Shown here one piece after another: positions 5,161-20,592 of a DNA stretch of 64,000 nt; position 1 is the first letter of the stretch; every line of letters starts with the position of its first letter. The DNA lies in contig LDXX01000002.1 of the NCBI GenBank assembly GCA_001442925.1, positions 1 to 64,000 on the forward strand, written 5' to 3'. The notes under the pieces are model-generated. The model worked only from the letters and a program-made list of their open reading frames with translations. It was not told the origin of the DNA and searched no databases. Both the position numbers and the translations under genes were made by a program. This stretch comes from Candidatus Kryptonium thompsonii (GTDB lineage Bacteria > Bacteroidota > Ignavibacteria > Kryptoniales > Kryptoniaceae).

Positions 5161-7506
5161 ATGAAGCGCAGAATACTTGCTATATTGCTTGCTTTAATTA
5201 CATCGGTAGTATTCTCACAGCAACTTATACCGATTCAGGACAAGAGTGGTAATAAGTTGCTTTTACAAATGAACCCATGGACAGGTTCTGCACACCGTGT
5301 TTATGGTCAATTGCCAAACATCAGCAGATATGGTTTCAGTTGGCTAAATCTTAACCTAATGAGCATAGAGAACCTGTCGAAGAAGTTCTTCTCAGATTAC
5401 GCCGGTATTCTAAAGATTAATCCAGACCAAACGAAATTAAGGAAGGCAGAGACGGATGGCAGAATGTGGTTTATTTCTTATGAGCAATCTATAAATGGTG
5501 TGCCTGTTTATGGGACTGAGATTGGCTACACAGTTAACCAGAGGGGTGATATAGTTGCGCTCGGCGCAGATGCATATCAAAATATATCTGTTTTAACAAC
5601 TCCACAAATAACAAAATCTAAAGCTGAGGAGATAGCCAAACGAGCATTTGGATTTGATTCAACTGCAATAGAGAAAGGATGTGAGCTTATAATTTATCCC
5701 AAACAGGGAAAAGACACGACGATTTTTTATTTGACATGGAAAATTACTTTATTTCGTGCTTATCCATTGCAAGAAATTATTTATTTTGTTGATGCTCAAA
5801 CTGGTGAGATAATAGAGGCCGAGAGCAATATTAAGGAAGGAGACTATCTCAGGGGTCAAGTAACAGGGGGTTATTGGTCTGTTCATGCGTGGGATTCTCC
5901 TGTAGATACAGGATTTAAGACCACGCACATAAAGGTGTGGGCAAAAGTATGGTGGGGTGATTGGTTAGTCTGGGAAGGAGATAGTGATGCCAATGGGAAT
6001 TATGATGCGGGGTATCTGCCAGAAACATGGGATTACTATATTCAGTTTGTTTTACAGAATGAATGGGTTCAAGTGCGGGATTACGTTAGTGGTAAACCTA
6101 TCACACAAGAAGTATGGTGCTCGCCAGGGATTGTAAACCTATATTGGGGCGCAACAGATGGAACAAATGTAAGATGGCATGCTTCGGTGATGCATGATTA
6201 TTTCAAGAATACGTTTAATTACACCGGCGTGTATTATCAGATGGGTGCATACATCAATTGTGGAGAGGGTATAAATGGTGCTGCTGATGGCACAAATATC
6301 TACTTTGGAAGCCAACCCGGACGGCAATGGGCGCGTTCAAGTGACGCTGTCTATCACGAGTACACACATAATGTTATTTATCATATTTATGGTGGCTGGA
6401 TTGGTTCTGGTAGCTATACTGAGGTGCCACCGCCTGGACCGCCTGAACCTGGACCGCCGAGCCCAGGTCCCCCTACCCAAGCGAAAGCTATGGACGAAGG
6501 CTTGGCCGATTACTTTGCTTGCACGGTAAATAATGATCCTCGTGTGGGTGAAGACGTTGGCGTTGATAGAAATCTTAATAATGATTACAAATGGAACCCA
6601 GACAGTAGCGCTCATTGGAACGGTCAGGTGATTGGTGGTGCTTGCTGGGACCTTCGCCAATCAGTAGTAGAGCCAAGTATCGCAGACAACCTTGTTTTCA
6701 GGGCGCTGCAAGTTTCGCCACATGCTCGTACATTTAGCGATTTTGAATACAATGTCTTTGTGGTGGACAAAGAGTACTACAACAGCTCTCACACTTCTCA
6801 GATTTATCAAGCGTTTTCCAAGCATGGGATCACGATACCAGCTTTAGTTGTTTCCATATCTGGTCCAACATATCTTAATGGCAATCAACTGGGAACTTAT
6901 ACGGCGACGGCCTCTGGTGGTGTTCCTCCTTATTCTTATCAATGGTGGAAGTTAGATATTGGAGATGGTGATTCATATGCCACAGCAACGCCGTCATCTC
7001 CTATATCGCCGATGAGACCTCCTGTGAACACATGGTATCCAATTGGAACGAACAGCCCAACTGTGAGCACGAGTAATCCAGCTTGGCTTGACTTTGAGCT
7101 CAAATGTGTTGTGACCGATGCTACAAATATCAGCGTAACATCCAATATTCTTTATGTCACTGTCGGCGGTTCAGGGAAAATTACTGCTGGCGATCTTTCG
7201 AAAAGTGAAATCAGCGTGCAAGAGATACCCACTGAATACGCATTACAGAACTACCCGAATCCTTTCAATCCAACAACGGAAATTAGATATCAAATGCCGG
7301 TCAGCGGTTTTGTTAGACTTTCTATTTTTGATGTTCTTGGTCGGGAGGTTGAAGTTCTTGTGGACGAGGCAAAACCTGCTGGCTCATATACTGTATCGTT
7401 TGATGCATCAAATTTGCCAAGTGGAGTTTACTTTGCAAGAATTTATGTTACATCAAGCGAAGGGAAGCCATTTGTTCAAACAATTAAGATGGTGTTAGCA
7501 AAATAA
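5161..7506 (+). CDS. Secreted M4/M36 (fungalysin-like) zinc metalloprotease with T9SS tail
   Basis: 781 aa. Signal peptide 1-19 (SVVFSQ), FTP/PepSY-type propeptide about 40-215 ([14 protein letters not shown]), catalytic domain about 300-560 with HEYTH (H399, E400, H403) and a probable third zinc ligand E446 in MDEGLADYF, an Ig-like domain about 567-670, and a T9SS sorting domain about 695-781 ([16 protein letters not shown], ending MVLAK). A proline-rich stretch (about 422-438, [10 protein letters not shown]) sits between the HExxH helix and the glutamate. The propeptide implies secretion as an inactive precursor and self-processing outside the cell. Start ATG follows GAGGTGAAAAGCA. Confidence 0.88.
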
Positions 7507-7534
7507 GATTGATGATTGGAATGTAGTTGGTTTT

Positions 7535-7612
7535 TTAAGTGGTGTTTACTTTTACAGGGTTAGTTTGAACGGTAAATATGTTGATGTTAAGAAGATGGTG
7601 TTGGTGAAGTAG
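7535..7612 (+). pseudogene. T9SS sorting-domain tail remnant
   Basis: 26 codons reading LSGVYFYRVSLNGKY, then VDVKKMVLVK and stop: the last two strands of a T9SS sorting domain with nothing before it. It lies 28 bases after the intact sorting domain of the metalloprotease, so it is left over from a second gene whose cargo part is gone. Confidence 0.7.
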
Positions 7613-7979: not shown

Positions 7980-8003
7980 GGGCATTTCATGAAATGTCCC
8001 TAC
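7980..8003. repeat. Palindromic repeat, family A (copy 5)
   Basis: GGGCATTT, CATG, AAATGTCCC then TAC, a near-perfect palindrome. It abuts the TTGACT box of the promoter at 8004. Confidence 0.6.
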
Positions 8004-8032
8004 TTGACTGTTGGTATGGGATTTATTATATT
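8004..8032 (+). promoter_or_regulatory. Sigma70-like promoter / CRISPR leader (copy 1)
   Basis: TTGACT at 8004-8009, 17-base spacer, TATATT at 8027-8032. The stretch from here to 8076 ends TTTATTTTATGGTGGG next to the first CRISPR-like repeat. It is clearly related to 8321-8394, which stands in front of another repeat. A conserved AT-rich sequence carrying a promoter beside the first repeat is what a CRISPR leader looks like. Confidence 0.5.
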
Positions 8033-8076
8033 ATAGTGTGTGAATTTTGATATGTTTAAGTTTTATTTTATGGTGG

Positions 8077-8242
8077 GTTTGGATTGAATTTGTGAGGGAT
8101 TGAAACAAAAAATGGCAATGGATGGATATATAAAACTAGGGAAGGTTTGAATCGAACCTATGAGGGATTGAAACTAAGAAAACTCACCCACTTGCCGTAC
8201 GCGTAGCCCGCAGTTTGAATTGAACCTGTGAGGGGGTGAATT
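8077..8242 (+). CRISPR. Small decayed CRISPR array, three repeats and two spacers
   Basis: Three 30-base repeats at 8077-8106, 8145-8174 and 8213-8242 share the start GTTTG and, in the first two, the end TGAGGGATTGAAAC. The repeats differ at several positions; the third ends GGGGGTGAATT. The two gaps, 8107-8144 and 8175-8212, are unrelated in sequence and both exactly 38 bases, the size of type I/III spacers. The GATTGAAAC end is typical of many type I-B and III repeats. No cas gene is in the window, so this is an orphan or relic array. Degeneration in repeat three fits the leader-distal end of an array read left to right. Confidence 0.7.
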
Positions 8243-8280
8243 AGGGCAATTTGTGAATTGAATTTGTGAGGATTGGGATA
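8243..8280. repeat. Half family A palindrome fused to a degenerate CRISPR-like repeat
   Basis: 8243-8262 contains GGGCAATT, TGTG, AATTGAA, the left part of a family A palindrome. It overlaps 8251-8280, where TGAATTGAATTTGTGAGGATT resembles a CRISPR repeat with one deleted base. A junction of two eroded repeats is the simplest reading. Confidence 0.35.
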
Positions 8281-8316
8281 AATGAAAATTAAATCAATAG
8301 CCCAAGCGGTGAACCG
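8281..8316 (+). terminator. Degenerate copy of the 9061 terminator region
   Basis: AATTAAATCAATAGCCC followed by GCGGTGAACCGGGGTTT mirrors 9047-9083 (AATTAAATCAGTAGCCCC, GGTGGTGAGCCGGGGCTTT). The stem here is weakened. It closes the first of two leader-to-terminator units. Confidence 0.4.
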
Positions 8317-8320
8317 GGGT

Positions 8321-8349
8321 TTGACTTTTGGTGAGAAATTTGTTACATT
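8321..8349 (+). promoter_or_regulatory. Sigma70-like promoter / CRISPR leader (copy 2)
   Basis: TTGACT at 8321-8326, 17-base spacer, TACATT at 8344-8349. The following bases to 8394 (GTTTAAGATTTATTTTATGG) match the leader copy before the array at 8077. It would transcribe the solo repeat at 8395 and the gene at 8456. Confidence 0.5.
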
Positions 8350-8394
8350 GCGGTGTGCGAATTCTTAGCACGTTTAAGATTTATTTTATGGTGG

Positions 8395-8424
8395 GTGAGA
8401 GTCGAACCTGTGAGTGGTTGAAAC
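8395..8424 (+). repeat. Solo CRISPR-like repeat upstream of a gene
   Basis: A 30-base element whose core TCGAACC and end GGTTGAAAC align without gaps to the repeat at 8145-8174, with about six differences. It follows the second leader copy and lies 31 bases before the start of the gene at 8456. Confidence 0.55.
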
Positions 8425-8455: not shown

Positions 8456-8983
8456 ATGAACTCGACTACGCACGGGAGAAGAAGTGCTTCCAAGATCATC
8501 GGTTGGCTCATGGTCCTTGGACTCTCCTTGTTCTTGGTTGCTTACGGCGCGACTCCTGATAACTCCCTTGGAACGTCGCCGAAAACATCCCAGCCCCAGT
8601 CGCCGGCGAGCAAGGTCAAGGCGTGTGACCTTTTGACCAAGGAAGAAGTGGAAGGGATTATCGGTCAGAAGATCGATAGCGTGGGTGTGCAACCAGGGTA
8701 CGGAAATTGCATCTACTATATAAGGGAGAAAGTCTTTGGGCAGGTCATGGCACTTCCCATCGTTACTGTTGGTTATTCAAAGAGCGATGTCCAATCTCGT
8801 TGGGATTATTGGTCTTCCACGTCGAAAAAGGAGGTTATTACCGGCGTTGGTGATGGAGCCATTTGGTCACCAGACTATGACTTTTTCGTCTGCCGGGTCA
8901 AGGGAGGATTGTTGATGATCTCAATAAAAGATAAGGACATGGCCATTAGGCTGGCGAAGAAGGCGATAACTCGGATAAAATAA
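8456..8983 (+). CDS. Exported DUF3558-like protein, atypical composition
   Basis: 175 aa from ATG 8456 with a strong AAGGAGGT site at 8442-8449; the open frame extends upstream to 8414 but only through the CRISPR-like repeat. A signal sequence or membrane anchor spans about 12-31 (IIGWLMVLGLSLFLVAYG), then a low-complexity S/P/Q linker, then CDLLTKEEVEGIIGQKI, the motif that opens DUF3558-type and related small exported domains; two cysteines (in KACDLL and GNCIYY) may pair. Codons are noticeably more GC-rich than in neighbouring genes (ATC, GTC, GCG, CCC), which suggests recent transfer. Flanked by a CRISPR-like leader and repeat upstream and a terminator at 9061. Function unknown. Confidence 0.65.
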   Translation: MNSTTHGRRSASKIIGWLMVLGLSLFLVAYGATPDNSLGTSPKTSQPQSPASKVKACDLLTKEEVEGIIGQKIDSVGVQPGYGNCIYYIREKVFGQVMALPIVTVGYSKSDVQSRWDYWSSTSKKEVITGVGDGAIWSPDYDFFVCRVKGGLLMISIKDKDMAIRLAKKAITRIK

Positions 8984-9060: not shown

Positions 9061-9088
9061 AGCCCCGGTGGTGAGCCGGGGCTTTTTG
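9061..9088 (+). terminator. Rho-independent terminator
   Basis: AGCCCCGG, TGGTGAG, CCGGGGCT then TTTTTGTTTTT: a perfect eight-base GC-rich stem and a T run, 78 bases after the 8456 gene. Confidence 0.75.
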
Positions 9089-9190
9089 TTTTTTAGAACT
9101 TAAGGACAAGGTAAGGATTGAGTGTTAAAAGTTTAGCTGAGCCGTCAAGCTTAGCGAGTTTATTTTTTTACTTCTTTGCAATGGAATGAG

Positions 9191-16685: not shown

Positions 16686-16728
16686 ATTTAATGTGGTGGG
16701 GTGAAGGTTGTTTCGTTAGTTTTGCCTC

Positions 16729-16757
16729 TTGACAAATTGTTTTTGAGTTGTTAAATT
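16729..16757 (+). promoter_or_regulatory. Sigma70-like promoter of the caspase-like gene
   Basis: TTGACA at 16729-16734, 17-base spacer, TAAATT at 16752-16757, 39 bases before the start codon at 16796. Confidence 0.65.
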
Positions 16758-16795
16758 TTTTGGCAAAAAGTATAAAATAAGGTAAAAGGAGTCCT

Positions 16796-19555: not shown

Positions 19556-19579
19556 GGGCGTATATCAATACGCCCGTAC
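19556..19579. repeat. Palindromic repeat, family A (copy 8)
   Basis: GGGCGTAT, ATCA, ATACGCCC then GTAC: the most perfect copy in the window, identical to copy 1 except for one base in the right arm. Confidence 0.65.
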
Positions 19580-19644
19580 TTTCTGTTCTTGGGAAATAAT
19601 AGTAGAAAAAGTAACCGAGGTTAAATTAAGAAGAAGGGAATGCC

Positions 19645-20592
19645 ATGTTAAATTTCAGGTTTTTACTTCAAGTAGTTTTGCATATTGTGATTGTTTTTGT
19701 TGTAATTGGATCTGGGCTTTCATGCCACGGAGGTAATTCTGTTGTACCACCAATCCCAAAACCACCTGTTTATCCAAGAATTGATGACTCTCCTGCTTGG
19801 TCGCCGGATGGGGAGCGCATCATTTATTATCATTACGGTATATCGCACATTAACATTGACGGTTCTTACGATATTAATCCTGATTCAGTTGGTTTATGGA
19901 TGATAAACGCAGATGGGACAAATCCTCGGTTGATACTCAAAGGCATGGGGAAATGTGCAAGGTGGAGTCCAGATGGTAATTGGATTGTTTTTGAAATGGA
20001 TGGTCAGATTTACAAAGCACGGATTGTGGGAGATAAGGTTGATTCAATAGTTCAGCTGACCACTGAAGGGCGAAATTTTTTCCCCGCCTGGAGTTCTGAT
20101 GGGAGGTGGATTGTTTATACAGGTGATTCAAGTGAAATTTGGGTGATGCGAAGTGATGGGACAGAGAAAAGGCGTATTGTTGCTGAAGGTATGATGCCAG
20201 ATTTGTCGCCGAATGGAAATTCCATTATTTTTGTGGGGCTAGGACCATCGATTTGTCGAGTTAATCTCTCGGATACATCTAAAATTTTTAGATTGATAGT
20301 TTTAACTCGAACTCCTTATGCTCCTGATCGCGGTTTGGGGCATCCTCGCTACTCCCCTGATGGGGCGAAGATAGTGTTTGACAGCGATGGTATTTGGATA
20401 ATGAATTCTGATGCTACAAATCTAAAGTATCTTGGCCTTGGAGATTCCCCATCTTGGTCCCCTGATGGGCAAAAGATTGTTTACATTGGTAGTTCAGGTA
20501 AAGAAATTGATTCGACTAATGGAACGGTGTGGGTTATGAACGCAGATGGAAGTGATAAACGTCCGCTTACTTATGGACCTATTCCAAGGTAA
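19645..20592 (+). CDS. PD40/TolB-like six-bladed propeller lipoprotein
   Basis: 315 aa. Lipoprotein signal with lipobox GLSC (Cys27). Six blade motifs in order: AWSPDGERI, RWSPDGNWI, AWSSDGRWI, DLSPNGNSI, YSPDGAKI and SWSPDGQKI, matching the six blades of a TolB-type propeller. ATG follows AAGAAGGGAATGCC. It is followed 30 bases later by another propeller lipoprotein; the pair is probably one transcript. Its 3' end has a broken copy at 4005-4078. Ligand unknown. Confidence 0.8.
   Translation: MLNFRFLLQVVLHIVIVFVVIGSGLSCHGGNSVVPPIPKPPVYPRIDDSPAWSPDGERIIYYHYGISHINIDGSYDINPDSVGLWMINADGTNPRLILKGMGKCARWSPDGNWIVFEMDGQIYKARIVGDKVDSIVQLTTEGRNFFPAWSSDGRWIVYTGDSSEIWVMRSDGTEKRRIVAEGMMPDLSPNGNSIIFVGLGPSICRVNLSDTSKIFRLIVLTRTPYAPDRGLGHPRYSPDGAKIVFDSDGIWIMNSDATNLKYLGLGDSPSWSPDGQKIVYIGSSGKEIDSTNGTVWVMNADGSDKRPLTYGPIPR

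Follow-up and report, generated by a model that had tools for sequence, protein, structure and literature searches.

The stretch of DNA analysed here (the window) comprises the first 64 kb of contig C2 of the 2.59-Mb genome of Candidatus Kryptonium thompsonii, a bacterium of hot springs. Among genes for secreted proteins with type IX sorting tails it carries a short group of CRISPR repeats, spacers and leaders, followed by an open reading frame (ORF), with the following layout:

8003-8076, forward strand: leader 1, truncated; a core promoter (TTGACT, 17 nt, TATATT) running up to the first repeat, without the upstream module
8077-8106, forward strand: repeat R1, leader-proximal; four differences from the main-array repeat, handle intact
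8107-8144, forward strand: spacer 1, 38 nt, without a convincing protospacer
8145-8174, forward strand: repeat R2; one difference from the main-array repeat, assigned to Rfam CRISPR-DR2
8175-8212, forward strand: spacer 2, 38 nt, without a convincing protospacer
8213-8242, forward strand: repeat R3, degenerate, likely the terminal repeat; five differences, 3' end altered
8321-8394, forward strand: leader 2, truncated; a core promoter (TTGACT, 17 nt, TACATT), without the upstream module
8395-8424, forward strand: solitary repeat R5; five differences, handle GTTGAAAC
8456-8983, forward strand: orphan ORF of 175 aa with a signal-like hydrophobic N-terminal stretch and a Shine-Dalgarno sequence (GGAGG); possibly a gene driven by leader 2

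The three 30-nt repeats starting at 8077, 8145 and 8213 and the two unrelated 38-nt spacers between them are as an earlier note on this DNA had described them, and its placing of the array among secreted-protein genes is likewise borne out by the sorting-tail genes around the locus. Leader 2 and R5 (8321-8424) lie about 80 nt downstream of the three-repeat array and, once they are counted, the feature spans 8003-8424, more than was first reported. A repeat-like stretch at 8251 was not counted as a further repeat, given that 11 of its 30 positions differ.

The same repeat, GTTTGAATCGAACCTGTGAGGGATTGAAAC, occurs in at least 96 copies in a main array on another contig of this genome (G000:C7:122410-128747), which reaches the contig end. 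R1, R2 and R3 are each 25-29/30 identical to it, being direct repeats of a length usual for CRISPR (~23-50 nt), and differ from it at four, one and five positions, respectively, as R5 does at five; R1 and R2 differ from each other at five positions, and the best pair among the three repeats is 25/30 identical. With up to 3 mismatches allowed, shuffled windows gave an expectation of zero matches to the repeat pattern, R2 scored 42.5 bits against the Rfam CRISPR-DR2 gathering score of 37, and leader 1 with R1 matched the leader of the main array at E = 1e-32 (leader 2 with R5, E = 7e-21), so that a chance resemblance is excluded. Within this genome the repeat is confined to the window locus and the main array, and the leader to three copies (main leader, leader 1 and leader 2); a dispersed non-CRISPR element, which the earlier note had named as one of two findings that would count against an array, is thereby ruled out.

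Directly upstream of the main array on C7 lies a cas operon (L051) encoding Cas6, Cas10/Csm1, Csm2, RAMP proteins and two CARF-family proteins, together with Cas8b, a DevR/Cas7-type protein, Cas5, Cas3, Cas4, Cas1b and Cas2. It is a full subtype I-B plus III-A set, in agreement with the combined I-B/III-A locus described for 'Candidatus Kryptonia' (PMC4737851). The description of the array as lacking cas genes thus holds for the locus and fails for the genome, in which the search for a cas locus with a matching repeat led to this operon and its array of 96 or more repeats. An orphan array left behind by a lost system is ruled out by the operon, and because both it and the matching main array are still present, the window array is read as a secondary array of a surviving system. 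Homology of repeat and leader, a spacer length of 38 nt within the 34-39 nt range of the main array and the cas operon in the genome all assign it to the cell's own system, of which it represents a genuine remnant, though one of an already known kind. With the Kryptonia locus (PMC4737851; here G000:C7) it shares repeat sequence, spacer length, leader core and orientation, and it differs from the C7 main array in having two spacers rather than 95 or more, mutated repeats, leaders reduced to a promoter core and no adjacent cas genes. The separation from cas genes and the degenerate repeats recall CRISPR arrays of the orphan or degenerate type (review: PMC8616872), from which it is set apart by a cognate cas operon that is still in the genome.

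The leaders are informative about the state of the array. The core of the main leader (TTGACT, 17 nt, TATATT, and on to the first repeat) is 89% identical to leader 1, which stands upstream of R1 with its upstream module missing, and 80% identical to leader 2; in both window leaders the -35 and -10 boxes are 17 nt apart and the core promoters look intact. Thirteen other leaders were taken for comparison (that of G004:C9 was left out, as it lay on the wrong strand in the alignment), and these reach ~155 nt beyond the core in the upstream direction, where they share a conserved module, CCGAGAACC ... CTCTGACAC ... TTGTCAGGGAGGTTCTCGG ... GTTAACA. In a multiple alignment this module is 48-100% identical pairwise among the 13 genus leaders and at background, 23-35%, in both window leaders, whose local alignment scores for the module (17 and 20) compare with shuffle medians of 18 and 15 and with 109 for a true leader. 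Point mutation cannot account for this loss next to cores that retain 80-89% identity; the module has been either replaced or deleted. Its position upstream of the promoter, its conservation and its presence with arrays in unrelated neighbourhoods suggest that the module may be an acquisition signal, and the loss shared by both window leaders makes it a candidate for this role in the I-B/III-A system. We know of no dissection of a leader from this group, and a search of the literature for motifs in I-B leaders returned nothing. Both leaders break off at the -35 box and the sequences that flank them differ, a pattern that the reading preferred below leaves unaccounted for and that counts against it. 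A short palindrome before leader 1 was considered as a common insertion behind the truncation and rejected, being rare (two genome copies at up to 2 mismatches). In a scan of named genomes a matching leader was also found in Candidatus Chrysopegis kryptomonas JGI-23 and in one Kryptonia MAG, and leader-bearing secondary arrays recur within the genus.

Few spacers at a site away from the cas genes would also be expected if Cas1-Cas2 had integrated off target, outside CRISPR loci, and had thereby started a new array. Such integration duplicates a local target site and brings no leader; the two copies of the native leader at this locus refute that origin in its simple form and leave it a negligible chance.

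The locus is best explained as a secondary array, now decayed, that belongs to the subtype I-B/III-A CRISPR system of the same cell (probability about 0.85). In CRISPR adaptation each new repeat is a copy of the leader-proximal repeat, and the private changes of R1 consequently imply that no spacer was gained after R1 had mutated. The terminal repeat is probably R3, the 3' end of which is gone. That the array is instead a minor one that still acquires and uses spacers could be argued from the nearly perfect R2, the two promoters with their 17-nt spacing and the cas genes available in trans; it is very improbable, in view of an R1 with four changes that is more mutated than R2, the degenerate R3 and R5 and the absence of the upstream module from both leaders. 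The idea of a relic with drifted repeats that has probably ceased to acquire spacers, put forward in the earlier note, therefore gains support from R1 and the truncated leader; what it had missed was the I-B/III-A system of the same genome, the truncated leader in front of the array and the second leader-repeat unit.

Under the decayed-array explanation, loss of the upstream leader module and mutation of the leader-proximal repeat would have ended spacer acquisition by Cas1-Cas2. Judging from the sequence, the array might still be transcribed from its retained core promoters, and Cas6, supplied in trans from the operon on C7, could set free a spacer-1 crRNA at the least; both steps are possible because neither core promoter has been lost and R1 and R2 retain their ATTGAAAC handles. 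The locus shows a course that the decay of secondary arrays takes in a thermophilic lineage, the promoter being kept and the conserved upstream module lost, and it offers a natural case for asking whether worn-out arrays supply distant cas genes with crRNAs or whether the leaders of CRISPR arrays turn into ordinary promoters.

The two spacers are unique and of uniform length, and neither the main array nor those arrays that were read from relatives contain a related spacer. When the region was compared with 31 genomes (its own and those of 30 relatives), none of the matches listed covered a spacer only, and among these matches the spacers were seen in no genus relative; the conserved gaps that the earlier note would have taken as evidence against spacers were not encountered there. 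That they record old invaders of the lineage, as had been proposed, was not confirmed, no convincing protospacer having emerged from the collections compared. Among phages and plasmids both spacers had short, chance-level matches only, and four exact half-spacer scans of IMG/VR matched two contigs, one (L128) sharing 22 consecutive bases with spacer 1 (~30/38 by eye), a weak lead only, and the other 18 bases with spacer 2.

Small arrays without cas genes are also known from archaeal viruses, and the locus might be the remnant of a mini-CRISPR array from an integrated virus or plasmid that turned the Cas proteins of the host on competing elements. Like the window locus, the arrays of the archaeal viruses SPV1 and SPV2 have 1-2 spacers, host-like leaders and stand-alone repeats and lack cas genes (PMC6858448), and the adjoining ORF 8456-8983 is foreign in composition and without relatives found. 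In addition, a contig of G001 that bears ParA contains a gene whose 3' end is matched by window positions 9061-9169 and which likewise comes after a solitary leader. The window array differs from the viral ones in lying on a bacterial chromosome and in its decayed repeats, truncated leader and a solitary repeat, R5, that has a leader, whereas the stand-alone viral repeats have none (PMC6858448). Moreover, of ten proteins scanned near the locus, several of them products of secreted-protein genes with sorting tails, none was recognised as coming from a virus, plasmid or integrase gene. A mobile-element origin, the main rival reading, is considered quite unlikely.

The gene that precedes the array ends in a stretch (window positions 7306-7511) that is 85% identical to the 3' end of a gene preceding an array (array B) in G003 and G001, where leader and upstream gene end stand in the same order. 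Descent of the two sites from a common ancestor is possible; it is not established, since the upstream proteins are related in their C-terminal parts only, sorting tails form a large paralogous family and the core of leader 1 is slightly closer to the own main leader (89%) than to that of array B (86%). Directly behind the upstream gene (5161-7506), positions 7530-7610 hold a remnant of a second sorting-tail coding end, and related stretches are present at other places in this genome as well as in relatives. On the other side of the locus, 9061-9174 preserves part of the 3' end of a gene of which G001 has an intact version (126 aa, L111:5570-5950), with a further copy at G000:C10:63078-63176 (94%).

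A different fate is conceivable for the second leader. The ATG of ORF 8456-8983 follows the end of R5 by 31 nt, behind a GGAGG ribosome site and downstream of the TTGACT-17-TACATT promoter, so leader 2 and R5 might now serve as promoter and 5' untranslated region of this ORF and no longer as part of a CRISPR. The same order recurs on G001:C16, where a solitary leader and degenerate repeats precede an ORF and then the gene whose 3' end matches 9061-9169, and ORFs directly follow the arrays at G003:C12 and G005:C258. The arrangement may, however, be incidental, and the ORF, for which no family match and no relatives were found, may be no gene; its GC3 of 58.5% (21-36% in neighbours) suggests that it may be foreign, or not a gene. 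Reuse as a promoter is regarded as rather unlikely, and it is compatible with a decayed secondary array for the rest of the locus. More doubtful still is the fuller proposal that leader and single repeat were co-opted for a horizontally acquired secreted-protein gene whose transcript, through a possible Cas6 site, would tie its expression to immunity; if this were true, the gene would follow the regulation of a CRISPR leader.

Several observations were made beside the locus. A second case is on the minus strand of G001:C16 (L111:7439-7515), where all repeats behind the leader are degenerate and bear insertions and an ORF of 389 aa comes next. At G003:C12 (L106:18730-18890 and 19560-19680) several repeats carry palindromic insertions (CCCTAAGGGATCC...) that differ in length and share one internal site, between CCTGT and TGAGGG. 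Two spacers of the main array (L052:6361 and L052:7153) contain a promoter-like sequence, TCTTGACAAATTG, which resembles the intergenic promoter at window positions 16716-16758; they were perhaps taken from virus promoters similar to those of the host. In the C7 cas operon a single protein (L051:8021-9739) combines a Csm6/NE0113-type CARF domain, a sigma-54 AAA+ activator domain and a Fis-type HTH, and is possibly a transcription activator controlled by cyclic oligoadenylate; proteins with CARF and NtrC-like AAA+ domains (RtcR-like) were described in 2014 as not typically near cas genes (PMC4012209). The start of a 572-aa ORF in G002 (L114:8667-10385) resembles this protein.
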